A stretch of DNA of 25,804 nt from Alphaproteobacteria bacterium (lineage in GTDB: Bacteria; Pseudomonadota; Alphaproteobacteria; SHVP01): assembly GCA_009694165.1 (NCBI GenBank), contig SHVP01000026.1, positions 1 to 25,804 of the forward strand. Reading direction: 5' to 3'. The notes beneath the pieces are model-generated. The model was given only the letters and a program-made list of their open reading frames with translations, was not told the DNA's origin and searched no databases. Below, one piece after another: positions 9,546-25,062 of this stretch; position 1 is the first letter of the stretch, and each line of letters begins with the position of its first letter. Position numbers and translations under genes: made by a program.

Positions 9546-11222
9546 TCATTCGCGATCGAGAAAATCGCGCAGCAGAGCGCCGACCTCGCGCGGATGGGCG
9601 TCCATGAAATAAAAACCATAGTCCATGAGATCGTGGATCCGTCCCTGACGCATCAGGCCGCGCGCCCGCAATGTGAGCTGCGCCGCGTCGTCGTTGGGGC
9701 GAAGGATCAGGACCGGCTGCGCCACCGCGCCCAGCCGCTCGGCCAGCGGATAGCGGTAGACCGCATAGTGTCCCCAGAACGACACCGGCCCGCCGCGCAT
9801 CGATTCGGCGAAGTTGCGCAAGAACACGTCCTCCGACACGCGCGGACCATAGTTGTCCGCCATGCGACGCCAGCGCTCGACCAGATGCGAGCCGTCCTCT
9901 CGCAATTCCTCCGGGCCATTGCGCCGGAGTCTCACGTCGATCTCATCCTGGGTGAAGATCGGCGCCGAGATCATCACCACTTTGCGAATGCCGCTCGCCC
10001 GCTGCAAGGCTAGTTCGACCGCGATCACCGAGCCGGTGTGGTAACCCATCACGTCGGCCCGGCCGAGTCCGAGGGCGTCGATCGCCGCACCGACGGCGTG
10101 AGCAAAGTCGGCGATGGCGGGTTGCGCCGTCGGCGCTTCGCTCTCGCCGAAGCCCGGCGTATCGACGGCAACGACGATGCGGTCGCGTCCCATCTCGGAC
10201 ATGAGCGCGTCATAGACGCGGCCGGACAACGTGCTGAGATGGAGCAGGATCAGCGGCGGCGCCAGCGCGATCTCGGGCACGCTCATGCGGACATGCACCG
10301 GCCCATTCGGCGTCGGCACGAAGGCCCGGCGGGCGACATAGGGCGCGACCCCTGCGGCGGCCGGCTCGATGTGCGCCGGGTACGAACCGGGACGGCCGGC
10401 GTCGAAATAGTCGCGGACATAGCCGGCAAACTCGGCGGTGCGGGTATCGAGGCGGAAATGAGCCCATTGCGGCAGATCGACATAATCGCCGTGGGTGAGG
10501 TGGGCCTGGATGCGTTGCGTTTGCTGGGTCAGGTCGTCGTCTGGGTTAAGCACCCGATGCGGCTGCGTCAGCCGCGGCACCATCTGCTCGAGGCGGTAGT
10601 CGAAATTGGCGCGGGCGCCCCACCAGGCACGAAAGCCCGGACGCAGCGTTTCGGCCACCGATTTCTGGACGCAGATGAGTGGCACGTCAGGCTTGCGCCA
10701 GGTCGCCGAGAAGCCCCAGCGGCGTTGCAGGAAACTGCCGTCGTAGGTGAAATCCGGGCGCAGGAACGCCGCCCGTGCCCGCGTGCGCTCGGCCTCGTTG
10801 GCGAGCGGCACGCCGGTCAGCAACAGGCGCTTGACCTGCTGTGGGCGCTGCAGCGCCATTTCGACCGCCGTCTTTGTGCCGCCGTGATAGCTGAGGACGT
10901 CGACTTCGCCGATGCCGACGGCGTGCAGGAAATCGATATGTGCTGCCGCCAGGTCGGCCACCGTGGGCGGTGTCGCCGGCGGATCAGATTCGCCGAATCC
11001 GGGGCTGTCCATCGCGAGCACGACGCGCTCGCGTGCCAACTCGGCCATCAGGAGCGCGAACATGCGGCCGGAGAAACCGGTCGAATGCAGGCACAGCAGG
11101 GGACGGCGAGTGGCCTGCTTGGGCAGCGCGACGCGGTAATGCACCTGGCCGTAGCGGCCACCGACGTAGTCGCGGCGCACGCCGGGCGGCGTGCGCCAGA
11201 TCGCCATCGGGTCCGTACTCAT
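9546..11222 (-). CDS. Double alpha/beta-hydrolase fold protein with His at both nucleophile positions
   Basis: The protein has 558 residues and two complete alpha/beta-hydrolase domains (about 1-275 and 295-558), each with an oxyanion-type strand (LLCLHSTGFSG, LILLHLSTLSG) and a DSPGFGESDPP/DTPGFGESEAP loop. The nucleophile elbows are SYHGG (His113) and GYHTG (His395), where serine hydrolases have GxSxG. The C-terminal acid/His regions remain (NPDDD with WAHF; NDD with DAHP). Known alpha/beta hydrolases use Ser, Asp or Cys here, so the catalysis, if any, is unusual. It has the same architecture as the broken gene at 256-1937. The ATG at 11222 overlaps the stop of a mini-ORF (ATGA), and the gene belongs to the 13243-8774 operon. 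The fold is certain; function is not assigned. Confidence 0.9.
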   Translation of the reverse strand: MSTDPMAIWRTPPGVRRDYVGGRYGQVHYRVALPKQATRRPLLCLHSTGFSGRMFALLMAELARERVVLAMDSPGFGESDPPATPPTVADLAAAHIDFLHAVGIGEVDVLSYHGGTKTAVEMALQRPQQVKRLLLTGVPLANEAERTRARAAFLRPDFTYDGSFLQRRWGFSATWRKPDVPLICVQKSVAETLRPGFRAWWGARANFDYRLEQMVPRLTQPHRVLNPDDDLTQQTQRIQAHLTHGDYVDLPQWAHFRLDTRTAEFAGYVRDYFDAGRPGSYPAHIEPAAAGVAPYVARRAFVPTPNGPVHVRMSVPEIALAPPLILLHLSTLSGRVYDALMSEMGRDRIVVAVDTPGFGESEAPTAQPAIADFAHAVGAAIDALGLGRADVMGYHTGSVIAVELALQRASGIRKVVMISAPIFTQDEIDVRLRRNGPEELREDGSHLVERWRRMADNYGPRVSEDVFLRNFAESMRGGPVSFWGHYAVYRYPLAERLGAVAQPVLILRPNDDAAQLTLRARGLMRQGRIHDLMDYGFYFMDAHPREVGALLRDFLDRE

Positions 11223-11317
11223 GCCGGCGCCGGGCGCAAACGGGTCGATTCGACGCCGGCGATGATGTCGGCCTGTTTGAGCGTGAGTTCGGCTATGGTG
11301 GTTCCTGTCGGTGTCAA
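11219..11317 (-). pseudogene. Mini-ORF, possible GlcG/HbpS-like remnant
   Basis: A 32-codon open frame begins at TTG 11317, which overlaps the TGA stop of the oxidoreductase gene, and ends at a TGA overlapping the ATG of the double hydrolase. It includes AELTLKQADIIAGVESTRLR, which resembles the first helix of GlcG/HbpS-type proteins (pattern xLTLAQADAIIxAAxxxARxLGL). An AGGA lies just before an internal ATA codon at 11296, not a usual start. It is either a trimmed relic of a gene or a coupling peptide that keeps ribosomes on the message. This is a tentative call. Confidence 0.35.
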
Positions 11318-12372
11318 GCAGCCGGTCGCGGTTCGTCGCCGACTTTTACCAGCGCCTTGCCGATGTTTTGGCTGCGGAAAAGATCGGCGAAGGCCTTCGG
11401 CGTCTGGTCGATCCCGTGATAGATCTGCTCACGATATTTGAGCGTACCCTCCTTGATCCACCACGCCATCTCGCGAATGCCGTTTTCGTAGTCGTCAATG
11501 TAGTCGTGGACGACGAATTGGCGACGATGATAGGGCCACGGCCAGAACGGTTTGTCCTTGGGGATGGTGTTGTATTCGGAGGCGAGCCCGACCAGACGGT
11601 AGCGGTGGCCGGGCGCGTGCAGCGCCATGATCGTGGCGGCCATCTCGCCGCCGACGTTGTCGTAATGGATATCGACGCCGTTGGGACAGGCTTTGCGCAG
11701 CGCCGCCGTGAGATCGTTGGTCGTGCGGTAGTTGATGCCGACGTCGAAGCCGAGTTCCTCGGTGATGTATTTCACCTTTTTGTCGCTCGAGGTGAGGCCG
11801 ACGACGCGACACCCCTCCATCTTGGCGATCTGTCCGGCGATCGAGCCGCCGGCGCCGGCCGCCGAGGTGATGACGACGGTGTCGCCTTTGCGCGGCCGCA
11901 GTTCCCGCGTCATGCAGTAGTAGGGCGTGAGGCCGGCGCGGCCGAGGACGCTGGCAAAGGCCGACAACGGTACGTTGAGCGAGAGGTCGCATTTGACGAC
12001 GCCGAGCGGATTGTGCCGCTTGTTGATCCAGCCGGTCGTCACGCACTGTGTTTGCCAACCGAGAATGCCCTCGACGATCTCGCCGGGCGAGAAGGTCGGG
12101 TGGTGGGAGGCGACCACCTCGCCGAGGACGCCGCCCGCCATCACCCGTCCGACATCGGTGACGACCCCGTATTTGCGCGACGTCAGGTTCTGCGGCGTGG
12201 TCGGATTCATCTGCATGCGTAGGAATGGATCGACCGACAGATAGATCGAGCGGACGAGGAACTCACCCGGCAGCAGCTCCGGCACCGCCTGCTCGACGAT
12301 GCGGAAATCGCTCTCTTTGGGTGAACCCTCGGCGTAGCGGGCCAGGACTACCTGCTTGTTGTTGGGCGCCAT
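11314..12372 (-). CDS. NADP-dependent medium-chain oxidoreductase (PTGR/curcumin-reductase type)
   Basis: The protein has 352 residues, typical of zinc-free MDR enzymes such as prostaglandin reductase, E. coli CurA (YncB) and leukotriene B4 dehydrogenase. The N-terminal domain holds SVDPFLRMQM (the SxDPxxRxxM family signature). The nucleotide-binding domain carries SAAGAGGSIAGQIAK, then NYRTTNDL and YDNVGGEM. No zinc-ligand cysteines are visible. These enzymes reduce activated C=C bonds of enones with NADPH. The Shine-Dalgarno GGAG lies eight bases before ATG 12372. The gene follows the bicupin by 25 bases and precedes the mini-ORF and double hydrolase in one operon. The family is very likely correct; the specific substrate is unknown. 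Confidence 0.92.
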   Translation of the reverse strand: MAPNNKQVVLARYAEGSPKESDFRIVEQAVPELLPGEFLVRSIYLSVDPFLRMQMNPTTPQNLTSRKYGVVTDVGRVMAGGVLGEVVASHHPTFSPGEIVEGILGWQTQCVTTGWINKRHNPLGVVKCDLSLNVPLSAFASVLGRAGLTPYYCMTRELRPRKGDTVVITSAAGAGGSIAGQIAKMEGCRVVGLTSSDKKVKYITEELGFDVGINYRTTNDLTAALRKACPNGVDIHYDNVGGEMAATIMALHAPGHRYRLVGLASEYNTIPKDKPFWPWPYHRRQFVVHDYIDDYENGIREMAWWIKEGTLKYREQIYHGIDQTPKAFADLFRSQNIGKALVKVGDEPRPAA

Positions 12373-12397
12373 CGTTGGTGCTCCGCGGGTGGCAGGG

Positions 12398-13243
12398 CTA
12401 ATAGTTCTTCGGGCGGACGTAGGGCTTGGCGTACTTCTTCAGTTCCTTGGGCAGGATCGGCCGGTAGGGCGGGTTCCATTTCATCGCCCATTTCTTTTTC
12501 TGGAAGATGTTCACCATCGGACCCTCGATGGTGCGGACCCACAGATTGAAGCCGGCGATCGATCCCGAGGGACCGTGCCAGACGCGTTCGCGCCAATAGA
12601 CGTAGCCGCCCGGCCCCATGACACCGCAATCGCCCCACACATATTCGCCGTCGAGGACGAAGATCTCTTCGATTATCGAATGGGTCCATTTCGGCTTCAT
12701 TTCGCCCTTCGGCACTCGATGGGCCGCCGACGAATAGAGGAACGACGTCTCCTTGGTGTAGGGGTCCGTCCGGAGCGGCTTGATGGCGACGCCCGCCGCC
12801 AGTTGCGGATCGACCAATCCAGGATCCCAGTCCATCGACAGGGTGTCGAGGTGTTCGACCAACAGTTTCTTGTCGAACAGTCCGCGCGGCGGTTTGCCCG
12901 CGCCAAGCGTCGGAGCCCGGTTGAAAGTCTGGAGCAGGACAGCGCCGGTCTTGGACGCCGCCTGGCGCACGTGGCCGGCGGGCAAGAACGCGTAGGCGTG
13001 CTGGCGGTAATCGATGTCGTTGACGCGAATCGTCCCCTCGAGCACGAGAAACTCCTCATGGGCGGTCAGGTACTCGGGCCGACGCTGCTGCCAGCCGGAG
13101 GGGTAGCGGACGATGCAGGTCGAGTCGCCTCTTTTGGCGTCAAGCGATAGCATCTTCGACTGCACGCCGGGGCGGATGCCGTACAGCCCCTTGCGCCAGG
13201 GAACTCCCTGGCTCTGAATGAACAAGCAATGTGGTCTCGCCAT
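12398..13243 (-). CDS. Bicupin protein
   Basis: The protein has 281 residues from ATG 13243, which has GAGGGGG just upstream; a GTG four codons earlier is less likely. Two cupin barrels can be seen. The first, about residues 35-110, contains LTAHEEFLVLEGTIRVN and YAFLPAGHVRQAAS. The second, about residues 165-250, contains THSIIEEIFVLDGEYVWG and YVYWRERVWHGPSG. The patterns HxxEExxVLxG and Pxxx(H/V) match cupin motifs 1 and 2, although the His/Glu metal set is incomplete in each. Proteins of this kind include dioxygenases and sugar-acid isomerases; many are uncharacterised. It is the first gene of the minus-strand operon 13243-8774 and is divergent from the transporter operon, so the two may be co-regulated from the 139-base spacer. 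Confidence 0.85.
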   Translation of the reverse strand: MARPHCLFIQSQGVPWRKGLYGIRPGVQSKMLSLDAKRGDSTCIVRYPSGWQQRRPEYLTAHEEFLVLEGTIRVNDIDYRQHAYAFLPAGHVRQAASKTGAVLLQTFNRAPTLGAGKPPRGLFDKKLLVEHLDTLSMDWDPGLVDPQLAAGVAIKPLRTDPYTKETSFLYSSAAHRVPKGEMKPKWTHSIIEEIFVLDGEYVWGDCGVMGPGGYVYWRERVWHGPSGSIAGFNLWVRTIEGPMVNIFQKKKWAMKWNPPYRPILPKELKKYAKPYVRPKNY

Positions 13244-13382
13244 GGTCCCCCTCACTATGTTGTGTTGTCCGCCGGAGCGCCAGCGACCCAGGCTTTGGAA
13301 TTGCCGGGCTGATTATGCTAAATGTACCAGATCGCGGCGCTCAATGAAGATCGCGAGTGATTGGACCTAGGGAGGCTATTCG
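13244..13382. promoter_or_regulatory. Divergent promoter region of the bicupin operon and the ABC transporter
   Basis: This 139-base spacer must hold both promoters. On the plus strand an extended -10-like TGCTAAAT lies in 13315-13325 and a weak -35 TTGGAA about 18 bases earlier. An 8-base direct repeat, AGATCGCG, occurs at 13329-13336 and 13348-13355, starts 19 bases apart, which is close to two helical turns and could be a pair of regulator half sites just upstream of the binding-protein gene. No regulator gene is next to it. Confidence 0.3.
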
Positions 13383-14954
13383 ATGTTCAAGACTTGGCTC
13401 CGCCCGCCCGGCGTTGCCGTTGCGGCCGTGCTGGCCGTCGCGGCCGCGACATGGGCACCCGCGCAGGCGCAACAGGCGAACCGAACGTTCACCATGGCGA
13501 CGGCGCTCACCGATTCGAAATTCGACCCGGCGCTGCATTTCGCCGAATTCGACGGGGTCGACATCATCAACAGTTACGAGCCGCTGGTGTTCCCGGTGAA
13601 GGGCCAGTTGCCCAAGCCATGGCTGGCGACCTCGTGGACGACGTCCCCGGACGGCAAAAAGTGGACGTTCAAGCTGCGCGGCGACGTCAAGTTCCACGAT
13701 GGCAAGCCGCTGACCGCCAACGACGTTGTCTATTCGATGGATCGCATGCTGACCATCGGCAAGGGCTACGCCTCGTTGTGGGACGGCATTCTGAAGCCGG
13801 GCACGACCAAGGCGATCGACGCCACCACCGTCGAGTTCAACCTCGAACAGCCGTTCGGTCCGTTCACCGAGACGCTGGTACAGTTCTACATCGTCAACAG
13901 CGAACTGCTGAAGGCGAACACTAAGGGCAATGACTGGGGCCAGGCCTACCTGCAGAACAACTCTGCGGGCTCCGGACCCTACAAGCTCGAATCGGTTGTG
14001 CCCGACCGCCGGCGCGTGTTCGTTAAACACGACGACTATCGTGGCGGCTGGACGCCCAACCACTTTGACCGCGTCGTCATCGAGATCATCAAGGAGGGGC
14101 CGACCGCTCGCGCCCTGATGCTCGACGGCAAGGTCGACTTCATCGACCAGTGGCGGACGCCTGACTTCTATCCGAGCATGGCCAAGGAAAAAGGCGTGCG
14201 CGTAATGGAAGCGGCCGACAACAAGCTCTATTACATCCAGTTCAACAATCAGCGGGCGCCGTTCGACGACGAGAACTTCCGCAAGGCGGTGTCGCTGGCG
14301 ATCGATTACGAAACCATCGCCAAGGACATCATGGGCGGGGCCGAAGTCGGCAGTGGGCCGATTCCGAGCGCCATGCTCGGCTACGATTCGTCGACCCCCA
14401 AGGCCAAACGCGACCTAGCCAAGGCCAAGGAGTATCTTGCCAAGTCGAAATACAAGCCCGACCAGTTCGAACTGGAATATTCCTTCCTCAAGGTCAGCAT
14501 CCACGAACCGGTAGGCCTGTTGGTGCAGGCCAACCTCAAGGAGTTGGGCATCCCGGTAAAGATCAAGACCGACCAGTGGCCGGTCCTGGCCGCGGCGGCG
14601 GCCAAGAAAGAGACGGCGCCGCACTTCTTCGCCGTGTTCAACACCGCCAAGTACCCGACGCCCGACGCCTACACCTTCGCCATGTACCACCCGTCAAACC
14701 ACGGCGGCTGGCAGGCGGCGTCGCACTACAACAATCCCGAGACGACCAAGATGCTCGAGACGGCGCGGACGACCATCGACACGGTCGAACGCAACAAGAA
14801 GTATGCCGCCGCGGCGAAGAAGGTGGTCGACGAGGCCGTGTCGGCCTGGGTCGGCTATCCGATGCACCGCACGGTCGTGTCCGAGCGGGTCAAGAATTAC
14901 GAGTCGAAGGGTCTGATGGCCTTCGACCTGTACGTCTACGATCTGCGGATCTGA
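13383..14954 (+). CDS. Dpp/Opp-type ABC transporter solute-binding protein
   Basis: The protein has 523 residues. ATG 13383 has GGGAGG with a seven-base spacer. The signal peptide has a hydrophobic core VAVAAVLAVAAA and a likely cleavage after PAQA before QQANRT. SBP_bac_5 motifs are present: WTFKLRGDVKFHDGKPLTAN near residue 98, AGSGPYKLESV, and FRKAVSLAIDYETIAKDIM. It is only distantly like the pair at 4373-7620. It is the first gene of the transporter operon and is followed by a strong terminator and then the permeases, as expected where binding protein must be made in excess. It captures the substrate in the periplasm; the peptide or small-molecule ligand is not known. Confidence 0.94.
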   Translation: MFKTWLRPPGVAVAAVLAVAAATWAPAQAQQANRTFTMATALTDSKFDPALHFAEFDGVDIINSYEPLVFPVKGQLPKPWLATSWTTSPDGKKWTFKLRGDVKFHDGKPLTANDVVYSMDRMLTIGKGYASLWDGILKPGTTKAIDATTVEFNLEQPFGPFTETLVQFYIVNSELLKANTKGNDWGQAYLQNNSAGSGPYKLESVVPDRRRVFVKHDDYRGGWTPNHFDRVVIEIIKEGPTARALMLDGKVDFIDQWRTPDFYPSMAKEKGVRVMEAADNKLYYIQFNNQRAPFDDENFRKAVSLAIDYETIAKDIMGGAEVGSGPIPSAMLGYDSSTPKAKRDLAKAKEYLAKSKYKPDQFELEYSFLKVSIHEPVGLLVQANLKELGIPVKIKTDQWPVLAAAAAKKETAPHFFAVFNTAKYPTPDAYTFAMYHPSNHGGWQAASHYNNPETTKMLETARTTIDTVERNKKYAAAAKKVVDEAVSAWVGYPMHRTVVSERVKNYESKGLMAFDLYVYDLRI

Positions 14955-14974
14955 CGGCCGGTTGAACGATCGGA

Positions 14975-15006
14975 GAAAGGGCGGTTGCGGCCGCCCTTTC
15001 TTTTTG
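14975..15006 (+). terminator. Intrinsic terminator between binding protein and permease genes
   Basis: GAAAGGGCGG (14975-14984), a six-base loop, and CCGCCCTTTC (14991-15000) form a perfect 10-base stem followed directly by TTTTTG. This is the clearest rho-independent terminator in the window. It lies 20 bases after the binding-protein stop, so only part of the transcription would continue into the permease genes. Confidence 0.9.
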
Positions 15007-15070
15007 TCGGCCGGCCGAAGACGCTCCCGGGCAGCGGGACCAGCCGGTACAATGGCGGCAAGGGGGTGCC

Positions 15071-16081
15071 GTGCGCTTTCTTATCCGCCGCGTGGCCGAA
15101 CTGGCGATCGTCATGTTAGGCCTGTCGATCCTGATCTTCGTCATCTCGCGGGTCATGCCCGGCGATCCGGTGCGATTTGCGCTCGGCCCGGGCGCGACCC
15201 AGGCGCAGATCGACCAGCTCACCCGTGAGATGGGCCTCGACCAGCCGATGGTGGTGCAGTACTGGCTCCTGCTGGTCGGCATCGCCAAGGGCGATCTCGG
15301 CGTGTCGCTGTCGACGTTCCGCAGCATCTCGGGCGACCTCGCCATCTTTCTGCCGGCCTCCCTCGAACTGGCGCTGGTGGCGATGGCCCTGTCGATCGTG
15401 CTCGGCGTGCCGCTCGGCGTCATCACCGCGGTCCACCGCAACCATGTGCGCGACTATGTCGGGCGGGCGCTGGCGTTTTCGGGCGTCGCACTGCCGGTGT
15501 TCTGGCTCGCGCTGCTGCTTCAGACGCTCCTATCGTTCAACCTCAAGCTTTTTCCCGCGGTGGGCCGCATCAGCGCCGACGTCAAGCCGCCGCCCGAGGT
15601 GACGACCTCCTACCTGATCGACAGCCTGCTGGCGTTCGACCTCCCGCTCTTCCTCCACGTCGGCTCCTACCTGATTGTGCCGGCCCTGGTGCTGGCCCTG
15701 TCGCCGACGGCGATGATTCTGCGCCTGTTGCGCGCCAGCATGATCGAGGAGACGGGGAAGGACTACGTTCTCACCGCGCGTGCGAACGGGATGCCGGCCA
15801 ACCTGCTCACCTATAAATACATGCTGCGCAACGCCTTTTCGGCGACGCTTACCATCATTGGCCTGCTGTTCGGCTATTTCATCGGCGGCGCCTTCGTTAT
15901 CGAAACGGTGTTTAGCTGGCCGGGCATCGGCCAGTACGGCGTTCGCGCCCTCCAGCTCAAGGACTTCAACGGCATCATCGCCGTGACCCTGCTAGTTGGC
16001 GTCGGCTATGCCATCGCCAACACGATCGTGACGCTGCTCTACGGCTGGCTCGACCCACGCCTTCGCTTCGCCGGGCGCTGA
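15071..16081 (+). CDS. ABC transporter permease, DppB/OppB type
   Basis: The protein has 336 residues from a GTG start (GGGGG six bases upstream). The N-terminal RFLIRRVAELAIVMLGLSIL helix, the PGDPVRFALGPGAT segment and the binding-protein-dependent transport domain are all characteristic of the first permease of dipeptide/oligopeptide importers. Six membrane helices are expected. The ATPase-coupling EAA loop appears around residues 233-252 (GKDYVLTARANGMPANLLTY; the usual form is EAA...G...P). It forms a heterodimer with the next gene product. The gene starts 117 bases after the binding-protein stop, beyond the terminator. A TACAAT hexamer at 15048-15053 could be a secondary -10 box, but no -35 matches it. 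Confidence 0.94.
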   Translation: MRFLIRRVAELAIVMLGLSILIFVISRVMPGDPVRFALGPGATQAQIDQLTREMGLDQPMVVQYWLLLVGIAKGDLGVSLSTFRSISGDLAIFLPASLELALVAMALSIVLGVPLGVITAVHRNHVRDYVGRALAFSGVALPVFWLALLLQTLLSFNLKLFPAVGRISADVKPPPEVTTSYLIDSLLAFDLPLFLHVGSYLIVPALVLALSPTAMILRLLRASMIEETGKDYVLTARANGMPANLLTYKYMLRNAFSATLTIIGLLFGYFIGGAFVIETVFSWPGIGQYGVRALQLKDFNGIIAVTLLVGVGYAIANTIVTLLYGWLDPRLRFAGR

Positions 16082-16083
16082 CC

Positions 16084-16989
16084 ATGACGGTGACCGTTCC
16101 CGATCAAGCGTTGACGCAGTTGGAGGACGCCCCGGCGAGCGCGCCGGTAAGCCGCTGGCGCGCCGCAATCGAAACGCTGCGCAAGAGTCCGCTGTCGGTA
16201 GCTGGCTTCGTCATCGTTATCGCCGTCATTGCCATCGCCCTGTTGGCGCCCTGGGTGGCGCCCTATCCCGAGGACGGCGGTACCGGGGTGCATTTCGCCC
16301 GCCGGCTGCGCCCACCGTCATGGGACTTCTGGTTCGGCACCGACATCGTCGGCCGCGACGTTCTGTCGCGCATCATCATGGGATCGCGCATTTCGTTGAG
16401 CATCGCCTTGTTCGTCATTCTGCTGGCGGTGTTGATCGGCGTGCCGCTCGGCGTCGTCGCTGGCTATTGGGGCGGCTGGTTCGGCGGCAGCATCATGCGC
16501 GTCAACGAGGTGTTTCTCGCCATTCCCTCGCTGGTATTCGTCATGTGTGTAAGTTCGCTGCTGCGACCGAGCCTGCCGGTGGTCATCGTCGCCATCTCGC
16601 TCGCCTGGTGGACGTGGTACGCGCGACTGGCCTACGGCGAGGTGATCTCGCTCAAGCAGGAACAGTTCGTCGAGGCGGCGCAGGTATCGGGCGCCAGCGC
16701 TTGGCGCATTGCTTTCGGCGAAATCCTGCCCAATTTGTCCTCGGTGCTGATCGTCAAGATCACGCTCGACATCGGCTACGTCATCCTACTCGGCGCCTCG
16801 CTCGGCTTCCTCGGCCTCGGCGTGCAGCCGCCCGACCCTGAGTGGGGCATCATGGTCGCCGAAGGGCGTGAGCAATTGCCTGACGCCTGGTGGCTCACCG
16901 CCTTCCCCGGCCTCGCCATCTTCCTCACCGTCATCGGCTTCAACCTGCTTGGCGACGGCCTCAACGACATTCTCGGGGCGAGGCAGTGA
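16084..16989 (+). CDS. ABC transporter permease, DppC/OppC type
   Basis: The protein has 301 residues. It starts two bases after the stop of the first permease. The first helix and the loop LAPWVAPYPED, then FWFGTDIVGRDVLSRIIMGSRISL, are signatures of the DppC family (GTDxxGRDxxSRxxxGxRxSL). The EAA loop is EQFVEAAQVSGASAWRIAF, and LGASLGFLGLGVQPPDPEWG near the C-terminus is also typical. It is an integral membrane protein with about six helices, the partner of the DppB-like protein. Its TGA stop overlaps the GTG start of the ATPase (GTGA), indicating translational coupling. Confidence 0.95.
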   Translation: MTVTVPDQALTQLEDAPASAPVSRWRAAIETLRKSPLSVAGFVIVIAVIAIALLAPWVAPYPEDGGTGVHFARRLRPPSWDFWFGTDIVGRDVLSRIIMGSRISLSIALFVILLAVLIGVPLGVVAGYWGGWFGGSIMRVNEVFLAIPSLVFVMCVSSLLRPSLPVVIVAISLAWWTWYARLAYGEVISLKQEQFVEAAQVSGASAWRIAFGEILPNLSSVLIVKITLDIGYVILLGASLGFLGLGVQPPDPEWGIMVAEGREQLPDAWWLTAFPGLAIFLTVIGFNLLGDGLNDILGARQ

Positions 16990-18011
16990 CCATCCTGCTC
17001 GAAGTTGCGCAGTTGCAGATCAGCTACAGCGATGCCGATGGCGTGGATGTACGCCTGTTGCGCGGCGTCGATCTCGTCGTCAACGAGCGCGAGGTGGTGG
17101 CTGTCGTCGGCGAATCGGGCTGCGGCAAGTCGATCACCGCCAAAGCGATCCTGGGCGTGCTGCCGCGCCCGCCGCTGCGGATCGAGGGCGGGGCGATCCG
17201 CTATCGCGGTCGCGACCTCCTGCCGCTCGGCGAGGCCGACTACCACGCGCTGCGCGGGAGCGCCTTCACGCTGGTACCGCAGCATCCGCTGTCGTCCCTC
17301 AATCCGGTGTTCACCGTGGCGCAGCAGTTCTTCGACCTGATCTGTTTCCAGGGCAAGGCTCGGGTCAGCCTCGGCCAGTACTGGCGGCCGCGACTCTCGC
17401 GGCGGACGCGGGACGCGGTGCGGGCGCGCACGATCGAGGCGCTGCACGAGGTCAGCCTGCCCGACCCCGAATCGATCCTCGAGCGCTACCCGTTCCAGCT
17501 CTCGGGCGGCATGAGCCAGCGCGTTCTGATCGCCATGGCGCTGCTGTCGCAGCCGGCCATCGTCATTGCCGACGAACCGGGAACCGCGCTCGACGTCACC
17601 ATCGAGTCGCAGATCAACGACCTTCTCCTCGAGCGGGTGCAGGCGCGCGGCATGGCGATGATCTACATCACTCACGACCTTGGCATCGCCAGCCAACTGG
17701 CGGACCGGGTTTACGTCATGTATGCGGGCCGCGTGGTCGAGGAGGGCCCGACCGAGACCGTGTTCACCGCACCGCGGCATCCCTATACGGCCGGGCTGCT
17801 CAAGGCCGTGCCCAAGGTGACCAACGAACCCTTTGCCGGCATCCGCGGCACATTGCCCGATCCCAAGGCCCTCGACGGCGGCTGCGCCTTCCGCTGGCGC
17901 TGCGCGTATGCGACACCCGCGTGCGGCATCGGCGTACCGCCGCTGGCCGAGGTCGGTCCAGGGCGACGGGCGGCCTGCATCCGCGCCGGCGACATCAGCC
18001 TGGCCGCATGA
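16986..18011 (+). CDS. ABC transporter ATPase, DppD/OppD type
   Basis: The protein has 341 residues from GTG 16986, which overlaps the permease stop; the frame remains open further upstream, but that part is only an overlap with the permease gene. Seen in order are Walker A GESGCGKS, Q-loop PQHPLSSLNP, signature LSGGMSQR, Walker B IVIADEPGTALD (Gly where Thr is usual after DEP) and H-loop ITHDLG. The C-terminal oligopeptide/dipeptide extension has HPYTAGLLKAVP and a Cys cluster (CAFRWRCAYATPAC) like that binding an Fe-S cluster in some DppD proteins. It powers import together with the following ATPase, with whose start it shares four bases (ATGA). Confidence 0.95.
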   Translation: MTILLEVAQLQISYSDADGVDVRLLRGVDLVVNEREVVAVVGESGCGKSITAKAILGVLPRPPLRIEGGAIRYRGRDLLPLGEADYHALRGSAFTLVPQHPLSSLNPVFTVAQQFFDLICFQGKARVSLGQYWRPRLSRRTRDAVRARTIEALHEVSLPDPESILERYPFQLSGGMSQRVLIAMALLSQPAIVIADEPGTALDVTIESQINDLLLERVQARGMAMIYITHDLGIASQLADRVYVMYAGRVVEEGPTETVFTAPRHPYTAGLLKAVPKVTNEPFAGIRGTLPDPKALDGGCAFRWRCAYATPACGIGVPPLAEVGPGRRAACIRAGDISLAA

Positions 18012-18967
18012 CCGTCCCCGTCCTAGTCCTCGATCGCGTCTCGCGCCAGTTCGGGACGGCGGCCCGGCCGGTCCTCGCGCTCAACGACGTCAGTCTCAGC
18101 GTGGGCGAGGGTGAGCGCATCGGCATCGTCGGCGAGTCGGGATCGGGCAAGACGACGCTCGCCCGCATCGTGCTCGGCCTGACGCCGCCCACGTCCGGCC
18201 GGGTGACCCTGCTGGGGCGCGATGTCTCGGCGCACCGCGGCGCGGACCGCGCGTTTATCCATCGCCATGCCCAGATGGTTTTCCAGGATCCGCTGTCGTC
18301 GCTCAACCCGCGCAAGAGCGTTCGCCAGATCATCGCCCTGCCGCTCGAGGCGCAACGGATCGGCACGGCGCGCGAGCGCGAGGCGGCGGTGAAGGTGCTG
18401 ATCGAGAGCGTCGGACTGCCGGCCCGCCACCTCGACGCCCGGCCGGCGCAACTGTCGGGCGGGCAACGCCAACGGGTCGGCATCGCCCGCGCCCTGGCGA
18501 TCTCGCCCAAGCTCCTGCTCCTTGACGAGCCGACCGCCTCGCTCGACGTGTCAGTGCAGGCGCGCATCCTCGAGCTCCTCAGCCGCCTCCAGGCCGAGCG
18601 GCGCATCGCCCAGGTGATGGTGTCGCACAATCTCGGCGTCATCCGTCACGCCGCCGACCGTGTCGCCGTGATGTATCTGGGCCAGATCGTCGAACTCACC
18701 TCGACCGCGCGCCTCTATGCCGCGCCGGCCCACCCTTACACCCAGGCGTTGTTTGCGGCCGTGCCGAGCGTTGGCGAGAAGAAACGCGATGCCCCCAAGG
18801 TGCGGGCGAAGGGAGAGGTGGCGAGCGCCACCAACATTCCGGCCGGCTGCGCGTTCCACCCACGTTGTCCGCAGGCGATGGATCGCTGCCGCACCGTCGT
18901 ACCGGGCGTCAGCACAGTGGCCCCCGACCACAGCGTCCGCTGCCACTTGTACTCGGCCCGCGGATAA
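18008..18967 (+). CDS. ABC transporter ATPase, DppF/OppF type
   Basis: The protein has 319 residues. ATG 18008 overlaps the TGA of the DppD-like gene. Motifs are Walker A GESGSGKTT, Q-loop VFQDPLSSLNP, signature LSGGQRQRVGIARAL, Walker B LLLLDEPTASLD and H-loop VSHNLG, all intact. The C-terminal extension has HPYTQALFAAVPS and the Cys segment GCAFHPRCPQAMDRC. Together with the DppD-like protein it forms the heterodimeric cytoplasmic ATPase of the importer. It is the last gene of the operon. In the 115 bases to the convergent TfoX_N gene I see no clear terminator. Confidence 0.95.
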   Translation: MTVPVLVLDRVSRQFGTAARPVLALNDVSLSVGEGERIGIVGESGSGKTTLARIVLGLTPPTSGRVTLLGRDVSAHRGADRAFIHRHAQMVFQDPLSSLNPRKSVRQIIALPLEAQRIGTAREREAAVKVLIESVGLPARHLDARPAQLSGGQRQRVGIARALAISPKLLLLDEPTASLDVSVQARILELLSRLQAERRIAQVMVSHNLGVIRHAADRVAVMYLGQIVELTSTARLYAAPAHPYTQALFAAVPSVGEKKRDAPKVRAKGEVASATNIPAGCAFHPRCPQAMDRCRTVVPGVSTVAPDHSVRCHLYSARG

Positions 18968-19082
18968 GCGCCCAGTGCCGGCGAATTCTCTTCGACGCTT
19001 GCGCCTATGCGCTCGGGAGAGGACGCGGAGCGCGGTCTCGAAAGGTGAGTGGGCGGGCTGCGAACCGCAAGGTCGGCAGCCG

Positions 19083-19457
19083 CTACCGCCGGTTTCTCTT
19101 GGTCTTCGGCGCTTTCTTCTTCGGCGCCTTCTTCTTCGGCAGCGACTCGATATAGGCGAGCCCGAGGGCAATCCACTTTTTCAGCGCCGGGTCGGTCTTC
19201 AGCCCGTCCCGACCAACAAACAGGTAGCCCTTCATCGGCCGGCCGGTGAAGTCCATCGGTCGGGCGTGTGGCCGCTTAACGGCGGCGCTATAGGCATCAG
19301 CGCCGACTCGTACCATGAAATCGCCGCTCGTGATGCCGCAGCACATGCTGCCCGCGACCATGAAACAAAGGCCGCCGAACATCTTCCGCTCGCTGACGTC
19401 GTTGCGCGCCGCCAGCAGACTGCGTACCCGTGCCGCCAGCTTTTCGTCGTAGGCCAT
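19083..19457 (-). CDS. TfoX N-terminal domain protein
   Basis: The protein has 124 residues. The TfoX_N fold is shown by VSERKMFGGLCFMVAGSMCCGI (residues 21-42) followed by FMVRVGADAY and KGYLFVGRDG, all hallmarks of that domain. The C-terminal TfoX_C helix-hairpin domain of the competence regulator TfoX/Sxy is absent, as in the many small alphaproteobacterial TfoX_N proteins, so a competence role should not be assumed. The last 17 residues are Lys/Arg-rich with a KKKAP repeat, probably disordered and possibly nucleic-acid binding. GGAG precedes ATG 19457. The gene begins three bases after the VOC protein stop, forming a two-gene operon. Confidence 0.88.
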   Translation of the reverse strand: MAYDEKLAARVRSLLAARNDVSERKMFGGLCFMVAGSMCCGITSGDFMVRVGADAYSAAVKRPHARPMDFTGRPMKGYLFVGRDGLKTDPALKKWIALGLAYIESLPKKKAPKKKAPKTKRNRR

Positions 19458-20496: not shown

Positions 20497-20524
20497 TTGA
20501 AAAGCCGAGACGAGGGCGTACATT
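20497..20524 (+). promoter_or_regulatory. Probable sigma-70-like promoter of the Nfu, radical SAM and ATP-grasp operon
   Basis: TTGAAA (20497-20502, five of six) and TACATT (20519-20524, four of six) are separated by 16 bases, 26 bases before the chosen start of the Nfu-like gene. A 6-base inverted repeat, CTCGGC (20484-20489) and GCCGAG (20504-20509), brackets the -35 box and may be a regulator site. Confidence 0.4.
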
Positions 20525-20550: not shown

Positions 20551-21375
20551 ATGTTCATCCAAACCGAGGCGTCCCACGATCCCGCCGTCATGCGTTTCCT
20601 GCCGGGGCGCGAGGTGCTGAAGAACGGCATGGTGTCCTTCGCCAGTGCCGAGGAAGCCAGAGGCTCGCCGCTGGCGCGCTCGCTCTTCGCCGTGCAGCAC
20701 GTCGTCCGTGTCGAATTAGGTGAAGGCTATGTCGCGGTGACCAAGAGCGAGGTCATCGAATGGCAGCACCTGAAGCCTTCGATCCTGGTGGCGATCATGG
20801 ATCACTTCACCGCCGAGCGCCCGGTGTTGGCGGACGCGGCGATCCCGGCGGCGGAAGACGACCCGATCGTGCAGCAGATCGTCGATCTGATCGAAACCCG
20901 CATCAAGCCGATCGTGACCAAAGACGGCGGCGAGGTCGTGTTCCACAAGTTCGTCGATGGCGACGTCGTGCTCGAACTGCGCGGTTCGGCCTTGCGGCTG
21001 CTGGGCGGCATTGAGAACATGCTGCGCCACTACGTTCCCGACGTCATCCGCGTGGTCAACCTGATGGACACGCTGCCCAAGCCCGGCATCGACACGCCGG
21101 AGGGCAAGACCATCCAGCAATTGCTCGACGACGAGATTAACCCGAGCGTCGCCTCGCACGGCGGACACATCTCGCTGGTCGACGTCAAAGACAACACCGC
21201 CTTTATCCGGCTTGAGGGCGGCTGCCAGGGCTGCGGCATGGCCGACGTCACCTTGAAACAGGGCGTCGAAGTGGCGATCAAGCGGGTCGTCCCCTCGATC
21301 GTGGCCGTGCTTGATGCCACCGACCATGCGGGCGGCAGCAATCCCTATTTCCAGCCGAGCAAGGGCGGAGCCTAG
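20551..21375 (+). CDS. NfuA-like Fe-S scaffold with duplicated NifU domain, the first lacking its CxxC
   Basis: The protein has 274 residues from ATG 20551 (GGAG seven bases upstream; earlier in-frame ATGs are less well placed). Residues 1-90 are the Nfu N-terminal domain (MFIQTEASHDPAVMRFLPGR). Residues 104-170 are a NifU-like domain (IVTKDGGEVVF, GIENMLRHYVPDV), but the metal loop, normally around GACSGCPSS, is deleted: LRG runs straight to SALRLLGG. Residues 186-260 are a second NifU-like domain with GGCQGCGMADVTLKQG (Cys225, Cys228), resembling the NfuA C-terminus. Usual alphaproteobacterial NfuA is about 185 residues with one NifU domain. One 4Fe-4S cluster shared across a dimer is the expected cargo. 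It lies 29 bases before a radical SAM gene, so it may supply that enzyme. Confidence 0.9.
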   Translation: MFIQTEASHDPAVMRFLPGREVLKNGMVSFASAEEARGSPLARSLFAVQHVVRVELGEGYVAVTKSEVIEWQHLKPSILVAIMDHFTAERPVLADAAIPAAEDDPIVQQIVDLIETRIKPIVTKDGGEVVFHKFVDGDVVLELRGSALRLLGGIENMLRHYVPDVIRVVNLMDTLPKPGIDTPEGKTIQQLLDDEINPSVASHGGHISLVDVKDNTAFIRLEGGCQGCGMADVTLKQGVEVAIKRVVPSIVAVLDATDHAGGSNPYFQPSKGGA

Positions 21376-21404
21376 GCGTCGCCGGTAGTTCCCGGCGTCT
21401 CGAC

Positions 21405-22796
21405 GTGACCGTCCTCCTCGTCTCCACCTACGACCTCGGTCATCAGCCCTTCGCGCTCTCTTCGCTGGCGGCCCGGCTGGATGCCGTCGGGGCGCGCGTC
21501 GTCTGCACCGATCTGGCGATCGAATCCCTCGACGAAGCCAAGGTGCGCTCGGCCCGGGTGATTGGCGTTCACCTCGCCATGCACACCGCAACGCGCATTG
21601 CGGCCGAGATCGTTCCGCGCGTGCGCGTCCTCAATCCGCGGGCGCCGCTGGTCTTCTTCGGCCTATATGCGCCGACCAATCCCGGCCTTCTCCACGATCT
21701 CGGCGCACATCTTGCGATCGGCGGCGAATTCGAGGCACCGTTCGTCGCCTTCTATCAGCGGATCGCGGCCGGCGAGGTGGTGGAGCGCGACGGCGCGGTG
21801 ATCGAACTCGGTAAACAGGATTTCCTCGTGCCCGCGCGGCACGGGCTGCCGGCGCTGGCGCACTATGCCAAGCTGATCGACGGCGCCGGTCGGCGCCACG
21901 TCGTCGCCTATACCGAAGCCTCGCGCGGCTGCAAGCACACCTGCCGGCATTGTCCGGTCGTTCCGGTTTACGGAGGGCGGTTCTTCGTTGTCCCGCGCGA
22001 TATCGTGTTGGACGATATCCGCCAGCAGGTCGCGGCGGGTGCAACCCATGTCTCGTTCGGCGACCCCGATTTTCTCAATGGGCCGGGTCATGCGCTGGCA
22101 GTCGCCCGGGCGCTGCACGACGAATTCCCCGACCTCACCTTCGACGCGGTGATCAAAGTCGAGCATCTGCTGCAACAGGCGGCCATGCTGCTCGAGTTGC
22201 GCCGCCTTGGGTGCATTCTGATCACGACGGCGGCGGAGGCCGTCGACGACGCGATTCTCGCCATCCTGGCCAAGAATCACTGCCGGGCGGATTTCATCCG
22301 CGCCGTCGCGCTGGTGCGCGCGGCCGGCATCACGCTGGCGCCTACCTTCGTGCCATTCACGCCGTGGACCACAGGGGCAGGCTATCGCGATCTTCTCGCC
22401 ACGCTAGTCGACCTTGATCTCCTCGACGATGTCGCGCCGGTGCAACTGGCGATTCGCCTGCTGTTGCCGCGAGGTTCGTTGCTGCTCAACCATCCAGCCA
22501 TGCAGGCCTCGCTCGGCGCCTTCGATGGCGCTGCCTTGAGTTATCGCTGGCGCCACCCCGATGCGGCGATCGACGCCCTGCAGCTCGAGGTCGAGCGTCT
22601 GGCGGGCGAGGGCGAGGAGAGCGGCGCCTCGCGGCGCGACATATTCGCGGCGATCTGGCGGGCGGCCCATGCCGCCGGCCCCACCGTCTTGCCCCCGACA
22701 CTGGCGACGGCCCGGGCGCCGGGGCCGCGCATGAGCGAGCCCTGGTTCTGTTGCGCCGAACCGACATCGCTGCAACGGCAGCGCATCGCGCTCTAG
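21405..22796 (+). CDS. B12-binding-domain radical SAM protein with CCAEP C-terminal tail
   Basis: The protein has 463 residues from GTG 21405 (no clear Shine-Dalgarno; probably coupled to the Nfu-like gene). Residues 1-125 look like a cobalamin-binding-type Rossmann domain, though the cobalamin-ligating DxHxxG is not evident. The radical SAM core starts at SRGCKHTCRHC with Cys176, Cys180 and Cys183 (CxxxCxxC) binding the 4Fe-4S cluster and SAM. TTAAEAVDDAILAILAKN is the typical late-barrel segment. The C-terminus holds CCAEPT (Cys449, Cys450, encoded TGT TGC). From memory this matches the CUAEP/CCAEP-tail radical SAM family, in which some members have selenocysteine at the second position. 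The reaction is unknown. An ATP-grasp gene follows three bases later. Confidence 0.9.
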   Translation: MTVLLVSTYDLGHQPFALSSLAARLDAVGARVVCTDLAIESLDEAKVRSARVIGVHLAMHTATRIAAEIVPRVRVLNPRAPLVFFGLYAPTNPGLLHDLGAHLAIGGEFEAPFVAFYQRIAAGEVVERDGAVIELGKQDFLVPARHGLPALAHYAKLIDGAGRRHVVAYTEASRGCKHTCRHCPVVPVYGGRFFVVPRDIVLDDIRQQVAAGATHVSFGDPDFLNGPGHALAVARALHDEFPDLTFDAVIKVEHLLQQAAMLLELRRLGCILITTAAEAVDDAILAILAKNHCRADFIRAVALVRAAGITLAPTFVPFTPWTTGAGYRDLLATLVDLDLLDDVAPVQLAIRLLLPRGSLLLNHPAMQASLGAFDGAALSYRWRHPDAAIDALQLEVERLAGEGEESGASRRDIFAAIWRAAHAAGPTVLPPTLATARAPGPRMSEPWFCCAEPTSLQRQRIAL

Positions 22797-22799
22797 GGC

Positions 22800-24023
22800 A
22801 TGGCGCGGGTCCTGCTGCTGGTCCCCTCGACGTCCTACCGCGTCAGCGACTTTTTGGACGCGGCGCGTGCCCTCGACGTCGAGGTCGTGGTCGGCACCGA
22901 CCGGGAACAGGTACTGGCCAATTCCGAGGGCCTGCCCTGTTTCGATTTTCGTGACTCCGACCGCGGCGCCGAGGAGATTCGGGCGCATGCGGTGAACCAC
23001 CGGATCGACGCAGTGGTGGCGGCCGATGAAGAGCCGCTGCTGCTCGGCGCCAAGGCTGGAGCGGCGCTCGGCCTGCCGCACAATGATCCCGACGCGGTGC
23101 GCATCGCCATCAATAAGAAGCGGCTGCGCGCGGTCCTATCACAGGCCGGGTTGCCGCAACCGCGGTTTCAATTGCACGGCGTCGATGACGATCCGACGGT
23201 CGCCGCCGGGCAGGCGAGCTACCCGTGCGTGTTGAAACCGTTGTCGCTCTCGGCCAGCCGCGGCGTCATCCGCGCCGACACGCCGGCGCAGTTCGTGGCT
23301 GCGTTTCGCCGCATCAGCGCGCTTCTCGGCCAGCTCGATCCCGACCGGAGGCAGCCGGCGCTGCAGGAAATCCTCGTCGAGACCTTCGTTCCGGGCGCCG
23401 AATTTGCGGTCGAAGGACTGTTGACGGCCGGGCGGTTGCGGGTGCTGGCGCTCTTCGACAAGCCCGACCCGCTCGACGGGCCCTATTTCGAGGAGACGAT
23501 CTATGTCACGCCGTCGCGTCACCCCACGCGCGTACAGGAACGCTTGATCGCCGCCGTGGCCGAGGCCATTGCTGCCATCGGCCTGCGCGAGGGACCGATT
23601 CACGCCGAGGTCCGCCTCCACGGCGATACGCCCTACGTTCTCGAGGTGGCAGCGCGTTCGATCGGCGGCCTATGTGGCCGGACCTTGCGCTTCGGCGCCG
23701 GCATTTCGCTCGAAGAACTAATTCTTCGCCATGCCTTGCGCCTGCCGATCGAAGGATTCGAGCGTGAGCGCCGTCCGGCCGGGGTCATGATGATTCCGAT
23801 CCCTAGGGGCGGCGTGCTGCGCCGCGTTGACGGCTTGCTTGAGGCCCAGGGGGTCGAGGGCGTGGTCGAGCTTTCGATCACCATCGCCCGCGAGGAACGC
23901 GTGGTGCCGCTGCCCGAGGGCAACCGTTACCTCGGCTTTATCGTCGCGCGTGGCCCAACCGCGGCGGAGGTCGAACGGACGCTGCGCGCGGCCCACGCCA
24001 AGCTGTCCTTCGTCATCGAGTGA
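22800..24023 (+). CDS. ATP-grasp ligase partner of the radical SAM protein
   Basis: The protein has 407 residues. ATG 22800 lies three bases after the radical SAM stop. Residues 1-100 are the pre-ATP-grasp Rossmann domain (MARVLLLVPSTSYR). ATP-binding residues include YPCVLKPLSLSASRG (Lys146 and the glycine/serine loop), EILVETFVPGAEFAVEG, and the metal/phosphate site HAEVRL...VLEVAARSIGG. This is the amino-acid/peptide ligase branch (carboxylate activation to acyl phosphate, then amide or similar bond formation), in which EVAAR/EVNPR carries the Mg-binding Glu. The substrate is unknown. Adjacency suggests it conjugates or prepares the substrate of the radical SAM enzyme. The gene's 3' end overlaps the convergent psp activator gene by 11 bases. 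Confidence 0.92.
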   Translation: MARVLLLVPSTSYRVSDFLDAARALDVEVVVGTDREQVLANSEGLPCFDFRDSDRGAEEIRAHAVNHRIDAVVAADEEPLLLGAKAGAALGLPHNDPDAVRIAINKKRLRAVLSQAGLPQPRFQLHGVDDDPTVAAGQASYPCVLKPLSLSASRGVIRADTPAQFVAAFRRISALLGQLDPDRRQPALQEILVETFVPGAEFAVEGLLTAGRLRVLALFDKPDPLDGPYFEETIYVTPSRHPTRVQERLIAAVAEAIAAIGLREGPIHAEVRLHGDTPYVLEVAARSIGGLCGRTLRFGAGISLEELILRHALRLPIEGFERERRPAGVMMIPIPRGGVLRRVDGLLEAQGVEGVVELSITIAREERVVPLPEGNRYLGFIVARGPTAAEVERTLRAAHAKLSFVIE

Positions 24024-25062
24024 CCGTCGCGCCAGAACCGCGGCCCGCAGGGAGAAGTCCGTGCGTGCGGAGCAGGTGGCGAAACTGGTTGTAGGTGAGT
24101 TTCAACTGGGTGGCCGCAGCGCGCTGGTTGTGGCGGGTAGCGGCCAGCGCCTGGATCAGCAGGCGCCTTTCGAAGCGGGCAACGCTGCGGGTGAAATCGA
24201 CCCGTGCACCGAACGGCACCGGGTCGCCGCCCCGTCGTTCGCCCTCGCCGGAGGGCGACGGGGCGAATTCGGCCGCCGGGCGGAACGGCGATTCGAAGGG
24301 ATCAATGACGACCTCGGCGATCTTGCGCTCCGGCCTTTCGGCGCGATAGACCGCGCGCTCGACCACGTTCTTGAGTTCCCGCACGTTGCCGGGCCAATCG
24401 TGACCGGTGAGCAGTCCGAGCGCGGTCTCGGCAAAGCCCGGGAACGTCGTCCAGCCCAATTCGTGACTCATGGCGCGACCGAAATGGTCGGCCAGCAGCG
24501 GGATGTCGTCGGGGCGGGTGCGGAGCGGCGGCAAGGTTAGGACATCGAAACTGAGGCGGTCGAGCAGGTCGGCGCGAAAGCGGCCCATTTCGGCGCGGGC
24601 GCGCAGGTCGACATTGGTGGCCCCGATCAGGCGCACGTCGACCCGGACCGTCGCGTTGCCGCCGACGCGTTCGAACTCGCCATATTCGACCGCGCGCAGC
24701 AATTTCTCCTGCGCTGCCAGGTTGGCCTCGGCGATCTCGTCCAGGAACAGCGTGCCATGGTCGGCTGCCTCGAAGCGGCCGTGGCGCCGGCGGACCGCGC
24801 CGGTGAAGGCGCCCGCCTCGTGGCCGAACAGCTCTGATTCGAGCAATGATTCGACCAGCGCCCCGCAGTTCAGTTTGAAGAAAGGGCGGTTCCAGCGACG
24901 CGACAGGAAATGAAGTCGCGCGGCGATCAGCTCCTTGCCGGTGCCGCGTTCGCCGACGATCAGCACCGGGCGGTCGAGCGGGGCCACGCGCGATACGCGC
25001 TCTAACAGCTCGACGAACGCCGGCGCCTGGCCCACGAGGGCAGGCAGGGAGGATTGCTCCAT
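24013..25062 (-). CDS. pspF: PspF-like sigma-54-dependent activator
   Basis: The protein has 349 residues, close to E. coli PspF (about 325), and lacks an N-terminal sensory domain, as PspF does. The AAA+ domain shows Walker A GERGTGKE (37-44), the sigma-54-contacting GAFTGA loop (84-89), Walker B GTLFLDEI (103-110), the FRADLLDRL arginine-finger region (162-170) and sensor II WPGNVREL (223-230). A C-terminal Fis-type helix-turn-helix lies at 314-336. The linker (about 262-285) contains a Ser/Gly/Glu/Arg-rich insertion encoded by a DNA palindrome (24229-24264). It is divergent from pspA, as in enterobacteria. PspA normally inhibits PspF; envelope stress releases it. No Shine-Dalgarno sequence precedes ATG 25062. 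Confidence 0.9.
   Translation of the reverse strand: MEQSSLPALVGQAPAFVELLERVSRVAPLDRPVLIVGERGTGKELIAARLHFLSRRWNRPFFKLNCGALVESLLESELFGHEAGAFTGAVRRRHGRFEAADHGTLFLDEIAEANLAAQEKLLRAVEYGEFERVGGNATVRVDVRLIGATNVDLRARAEMGRFRADLLDRLSFDVLTLPPLRTRPDDIPLLADHFGRAMSHELGWTTFPGFAETALGLLTGHDWPGNVRELKNVVERAVYRAERPERKIAEVVIDPFESPFRPAAEFAPSPSGEGERRGGDPVPFGARVDFTRSVARFERRLLIQALAATRHNQRAAATQLKLTYNQFRHLLRTHGLLPAGRGSGATVTR
24229..24264. repeat. Palindromic REP-like element inside the pspF-like coding region
   Basis: Two nested stems, GCCCCGTC/GACGGGGC (24229-24236 and 24257-24264) and GCCCTC/GAGGGC (24241-24246 and 24251-24256), with a GCCG loop and a four-base bulge, give 14 base pairs. The minus-strand translation is the low-complexity peptide PSPSGEGERRG in the linker between the AAA+ domain and the DNA-binding domain. 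It looks like an intergenic palindromic repeat captured in frame. Confidence 0.5.

Follow-up and report, generated by a model that had tools for sequence, protein, structure and literature searches.

What do an iron-sulfur (Fe-S) carrier, a radical S-adenosylmethionine (SAM) enzyme and an ATP-grasp ligase make together? The question is raised by three genes on a 25,804-nucleotide stretch of DNA (the window) from an Alphaproteobacteria bacterium (contig SHVP01000026.1, assembly GCA_009694165.1). A preliminary description had noted that an Nfu gene, a radical SAM gene and an ATP-grasp gene are closely packed here, and our analysis confirmed this: all three lie on the + strand, with gaps of 29 bases between the Nfu and radical SAM genes and 3 bases between the radical SAM and ATP-grasp genes. 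We found that they form a real and widespread module which, as far as the literature could be searched, is undescribed. An ArsL-like radical enzyme working with a peptide ligase is the best supported reading of this module. In its full form, a small biosynthetic pathway with a soft atom on a cysteine/selenocysteine (Cys/Sec) pair, a ligase and Nfu, we give this reading a probability of about 0.4.

The radical SAM protein belongs to NF040546 by its whole-protein hidden Markov model (585.9 bits, cut-off 500). This is the CUAEP/CCAEP tail family, named without an assigned function, and the C[CU]AEP motif that defines it was found as CCAEP at residues 449-453. The nearest other family is ArsL, of which the CUAEP family is a sister. 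In an alignment of 40 CUAEP and 4 ArsL rows, with Sec written as C, 36 residues were invariant over all 44 rows, including the cluster cysteines and the C-terminal vicinal pair. Outside the cluster, the invariant cysteines of the ArsL rows number three and are confined to the tail; those of the CUAEP rows are the pair and C270, which was present in 40/40 CUAEP rows of one alignment and 119/120 of another, and in 0/4 ArsL rows. The window protein is not an ArsL itself: it scored 254.3 bits against the 450 of NF040542, and of the ArsL C-terminus, RCCLKC, the CC pair aligns while the remainder differs. The preliminary description saw no known pathway marker at the locus, and so overlooked both this relationship and the selenocysteine forms described below.

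In a previous report, ArsL was predicted to transfer the 3-amino-3-carboxypropyl (ACP) group of SAM to As(III), and arsL alone was sufficient to turn arsenite into hydroxyarsinothricin in E. coli (PMC8552651); according to a later review, ArsL has been found to transfer ACP to arsenic (PMC12159101). In the pathway that we propose, the C-terminal Cys/Sec pair may hold a soft atom, X, on which the radical SAM enzyme would build a non-standard amino acid. The ATP-grasp enzyme, an L-amino acid ligase (LAL), would then join this amino acid to a second one, and Nfu would load or repair the Fe-S cluster of the radical enzyme.

The structure model of the radical SAM protein (mean predicted local distance difference test score 93.6) resembles AprD4, OxsB, MgmA, TsrM and MiaB, and its fold is of the AprD4/B12 class. 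To this extent the B12-type N-terminal domain suggested earlier holds. The B12-binding domain PF02310 scored 25.7, under its Pfam cut-off of 32.1, and cobalamin (B12) binding is not supported. The SPASM domain of radical SAM maturases for ribosomally synthesized peptides (RiPPs) had no match in the window protein at E 0.01.

A scan of genome contigs yielded 98 relatives of the radical SAM protein, and the best 80 of these 98 were used as loci. Most are from metagenome-assembled genomes of Rhodospirillales and other Alphaproteobacteria, Acidobacteria, Chloroflexi, Gemmatimonadetes, Nitrospirales and Calditrichia, with Actinopolyspora in addition. The codons matching C449 and C450 include at least one UGA, which we read as Sec, in 41 of the 76 relatives with a readable tail. 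Over the 80 loci the pair was Cys-Cys (CC) in 35, Cys-UGA in 34, UGA-Cys in 4 and UGA-UGA in 3, the tail not being reached in 4; TAA and TAG were found at the pair in none. The window copy, with TGT TGC at the pair and no in-frame UGA, is not a predicted selenoprotein. A Sec-Sec pair is predicted from the codons of three Chloroflexota loci (L040, L042 and L065, Chloroflexi/Anaerolineae). Above a line of 60 bits set in this analysis (the family's own cut-off is 47), tRNA-Sec was found in 11 of 12 UGA-tail genomes, the twelfth, G012, scoring 47.3, and in five of eight CC-tail genomes, with G001 at 49.6. RNA directly 3' of the UGA also folds more strongly than its counterpart in CC loci (mean z -0.9, n=40, versus -0.02, n=35; p 1e-4), in a comparison of related sequences that are not independent.

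The ATP-grasp protein carries ATP-grasp_4 and LAL_C2 domains, both over cut-offs, and has the ATP-grasp fold of the BL00235/BacD class. It is an L-amino acid ligase of the BL00235 fold and is predicted to make dipeptides from free amino acids. In 45/80 loci the radical SAM gene is followed immediately, on the same strand, by a ligase gene of the module family; in 25/80 Nfu is adjacent as well. Nfu is found without a directly downstream ligase in three loci (L032, L046 and L080; in L046 the ligase lies beyond Nfu), and neither gene is adjacent in 32/80. Among the 35 loci without an adjacent ligase, 7 have less than 1 kb of downstream sequence. We searched the genomes of 20 of these 35 for an unlinked copy, and 16 contained one full-length match (467-547 bits), often far from the radical SAM gene; two of the 16 matches are interrupted by an in-frame stop, and the distance between ligase and radical SAM gene is 2-8 kb in G009 and G320. 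In the other four genomes the ligase was in two fragments (one), weak at 179 bits (one) or not found at E 1e-40 (two).

Co-occurrence was then counted in three genome samples, each named after the phylum of a centre genome that had been chosen as a carrier. The thresholds were E 1e-40 for Acidobacteriota, 1e-60 for Chloroflexota and the Pseudomonadota ligase, and the family cut-off for the Pseudomonadota radical SAM protein. Both genes were present in 31 of 199 Acidobacteriota genomes and neither in 165; two had the ligase alone and one the radical SAM gene alone, as a partial match. Of 151 Chloroflexota genomes, 38 had both genes, 102 had neither, 11 had the ligase alone and 0 had the radical SAM gene alone. 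With the centre left out, Fisher p was 5e-32 and 1e-25, respectively, uncorrected for relatedness. Among 299 Pseudomonadota genomes the centre alone had both and 298 had neither, with some weaker radical SAM match in 219. Thus the ligase accompanied 69 of 70 radical-SAM-positive genomes in the Acidobacteriota and Chloroflexota samples. Tree distances of the two proteins were also correlated over 47 paired loci (r 0.83, reached in 0/2000 permutations), to which host ancestry contributes. Together with the adjacency of Nfu in several phyla, these results bear out the earlier proposal that the trio is a functional unit. No general fourth gene was found. A DUF169-type protein adjoins the radical SAM gene in 3 loci (L072, L074 and L023), with weaker matches at the same locus in 2 more (L152 and L142); a peroxiredoxin gene recurs in 3 loci, and a YggX-type oxidative damage protection gene in 15 radical SAM/ligase loci (for example, L099:5620-5955).

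Nfu is tied to the module by position. The window protein has Nfu_N (80.6 bits) and NifU (114.4 bits over two stretches) domains; the first NifU copy is degenerate and lacks CxxC, and the second retains GGCQGCG, which makes it an Nfu Fe-S carrier. The identities given earlier to all three proteins stand. By domain envelopes, Nfu and a partner gene are no more than 600 bases apart in 29/81 loci (the 80 and the window), in 12/40 further loci around ligase genes and in 11/15 further Chloroflexota loci; 11 of these 15 belong to ligase-only genomes, and in 9 of the 11 Nfu is beside the ligase (L139-L143, L146-L149). The N-terminal part of the partner Nfu varies, being Nfu_N-like, HesB-like or missing (labels by eye). 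Presence of NifU was not enriched in Acidobacteriota genomes with the radical SAM gene (19/32, against 117/167 others), only its position: in 14 of the 19, NifU is within about 600 bases of a partner. Among 16 carrier genomes, five of them chosen because Nfu had already been seen there, a single Nfu gene stood beside a partner in 10, the same with a second copy in 2 and elsewhere in 2, and none was found in 2. A dedicated Nfu paralogue was therefore mostly rejected, and the modified Nfu that the preliminary description took to serve this enzyme is often the sole Nfu gene found in a genome.

A parallel was found around ArsL itself. Of 17 plasmid hits one is a CUAEP protein; the ArsL-type proteins come from 16 records of five genera, which are not independent of each other. 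In 15 of the 16 the ArsL-type gene has an LAL-type ATP-grasp gene no more than 2.5 kb away (for example, L087, L088 and L091), and the three such clusters that we viewed contain ArsM, ArsR or transporter genes. In the Pseudomonas amygdali ArsL cluster no ligase is annotated within 4 kb. The ArsL-ligase pairing suggests peptide-linked arsinothricin; our literature search found no paper on this pairing and none naming both 'arsinothricin' and 'ATP-grasp'.

Several results weigh against an ArsL-like chemistry for the module. The ligases beside ArsL are only distant relatives of the window ligase, P0003 (26% and 24% identity), and we therefore read the two radical SAM-ligase pairings as two recruitments from one superfamily. 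When 18 ArsL-cluster proteins were searched against the open reading frames (ORFs) of the 80 loci and the window, only three ligases matched broadly and ten proteins had no match; the others included one major facilitator superfamily protein, weak in 6 loci, ArsR in L041 and ArsM, weak in a few. ArsL was over its cut-off in 0/16 carrier genomes. Strong ArsM-type matches occurred in 4/32 Acidobacteriota genomes with the radical SAM gene and 9/167 without, counts that give no clear link, and none of the 199 genomes had ArsM over the family cut-off. A metal(loid) context, meaning a clear arsenic or mercury gene nearby, was seen in 1/80 loci (L041), with SaoD/DsrE in one more (L075), and the radical SAM gene was absent from 13 of 82 ligase-positive genomes in the Acidobacteriota and Chloroflexota samples. 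In the structure model C270 is at the start of a barrel strand and may lie away from the cluster; a three-thiol site is therefore not claimed.

The tail pair could also have another role. Together with C270 it might ligate an auxiliary Fe-S cluster that donates sulfur, as in lipoyl synthase, with Nfu reloading the cluster and a sulfur-containing amino acid or peptide as the product. NfuA repairs LipA, and the recurrence of Nfu beside either gene in several phyla with differing N-terminal parts, as well as its closeness to a partner in Acidobacteriota, would fit such a sacrificial cluster. Tandem cysteines are likewise discussed as possible cluster ligands in Dph2, in the accessible part of PMC11048331. 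However, 13/32 radical-SAM-positive Acidobacteriota genomes and G009 have no NifU match, in assemblies some of which may be incomplete; Nfu also stays beside the ligase in most of the Chloroflexota loci whose genomes have no radical SAM match; and for ArsL, with the same tail pair, the four clusters viewed show no annotated Nfu over a distance of about 4 kb or more. We regard sulfur donation as a possible but doubtful account. The order proposed in the preliminary description, in which the radical enzyme modifies a peptide that the ATP-grasp enzyme has built or tagged beforehand, is unlikely. The order of the reactions cannot be read from that of the genes, and a radical SAM gene is missing from 11 of 49 ligase-positive Chloroflexota genomes, so the ligase may act alone. 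Nevertheless, the relationship with ArsL points the opposite way: this sister enzyme needs no ligated substrate, because arsL by itself yields hydroxyarsinothricin. The missing SPASM domain also argues against this order, as does the finding that no precursor peptide gene stands out among the clustered neighbour families (ORFs of at least 60 aa, or at least 80 in one clustering).

Still less probable is an arsenic pathway proper, in which an arsinothricin-like arseno-amino acid would be made into a peptide that serves as an antibiotic or a detoxification product. The kinship with ArsL, whose clusters have a ligase of their own, speaks for it, as does L041 (Actinopolyspora; 9764-19413). There, genes for a pyridoxal phosphate-dependent amino acid decarboxylase, an ArsP-type permease and a SaoD/DsrE protein come after the radical SAM gene. 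MerB, an ArsR/SmtB regulator and a reductase that is MerA-like but scores under the MerA cut-off are encoded close by. No ligase of the module family was found in this genome. Against it, no clear arsenic gene was found near the other 79 loci in flanks of up to 10 kb, with a query set that did not include Acr3 or ArsC, and ArsM showed no clear association in Acidobacteriota. The window radical SAM gene has no arsenic resistance or arsQML neighbourhood: ArsB, ArsQ, ArsN1 and ArsR had no match in the window, and one weak ArsM-like methyltransferase (33 bits) is far off at 2454-3587. Membership of an arsenic operon was rejected on the 18-protein search, in which broad matches were limited to ligases.

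The features of the locus are collected in the table below. The single promoter candidate noted earlier is present, as one weak consensus match with a chance expectation of 0.3, and is weak evidence.

Features of the module locus, in window positions
Feature	Position	Strand	Remark
Promoter-like site TTGAAA-16-TACATT	20497..20524	+	9/12 consensus matches
Nfu-type Fe-S carrier gene	20551..21375	+	ORF and Pfam domains
CUAEP/CCAEP-tail radical SAM gene (NF040546), sister family of ArsL	21405..22796	+	GTG start
Codons of CxxxCxxC (C176, C180, C183), radical SAM cluster site	21930..21953	+	Invariant in 40 CUAEP and 4 ArsL rows
Codon of C270	22212..22214	+	Conserved in CUAEP family, absent from ArsL
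Codons of CCAEP tail (C449, C450, A451, E452, P453)	22749..22763	+	
ATP-grasp L-amino acid ligase gene with LAL_C2 domain	22800..24023	+	

On the downstream side, a PspF-type activator gene (24013-25062, - strand) is convergent to the ligase gene and overlaps its end by 11 bases. It was not adopted as part of the module, as PspF is in no neighbour family among the clustered loci. Upstream, genes of an apparent peptide-type ATP-binding cassette (ABC) transporter (13383-18967, + strand; binding protein, two permeases and ATPases, named by eye) end 1.6 kb before Nfu. The transporter was not adopted either; only the generic ABC ATPase family recurs, in 11 other loci.

NF040546, so far an unexplained family with many predicted selenoproteins, is thereby given a regular partner enzyme and, with the ArsL-like reading, a plausible reaction class and residues that can be tested. 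Somewhat more tentatively, the module may represent a pathway of at least six phyla that builds a peptide around an amino acid whose hetero-atom (a metalloid, a chalcogen or another soft element) would receive ACP from SAM while bound to a Cys/Sec pair, or even to Sec-Sec. The synthesis of arsinothricin, where a ligase also follows, would then be a specialised branch. Should the reaction class prove correct, transfer of ACP to a soft atom would extend far beyond the arsinothricin producers known so far, and the ArsL clusters themselves should yield a peptide product, which is unmentioned in the literature searched. The predicted adjacent Sec-Sec in a natural protein tail is also of interest for selenium biology. 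Our literature search found no paper on 'CUAEP' and none on 'CCAEP' with 'radical SAM', an earlier mention in the Haft selenoprotein papers being possible. In a 2026 review on the selenoproteins of prokaryotes (PMC13188914), CUAEP, UAEP and NF040546 had no match in the main text, although another name may be used there.

Finally, we compared the module with known systems. The CUAEP protein differs from the AprD4/OxsB/MgmA/TsrM/MiaB class in its low identity (12-19%), its lack of a Pfam-supported cobalamin domain and its distinctive tail. Nfu resembles the NfuA/Nfu1 carriers in its Nfu_N and CxxC NifU domains, and differs by the second, degenerate NifU domain and by a score under the cut-off of the NfuA equivalog TIGR03341 (98.4 bits against 269). 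The module ligases form a group separate from BL00235 (PDB 3vot), with a near-invariant ALFDKPDPLDGPFFEETIY stretch, and differ from it in being tied to a radical SAM family. The Sec-assisted organometallic (SAO) system, as described in the accessible text of PMC13188914, shares Sec at vicinal Cys sites and has SaoD/DsrE-family genes near the CUAEP radical SAM gene in L041 and L075, but is made of other proteins. The closest likeness is with ArsL: end-to-end homology, the invariant residues, CxxxCxxC, the C-terminal vicinal cysteines and a frequent nearby LAL-type ATP-grasp gene. From ArsL the CUAEP proteins are set apart by CCAEP rather than RCCLKC at the tail, by the many predicted selenoproteins among them, and by a setting outside arsenic operons with another partner ligase and Nfu added.

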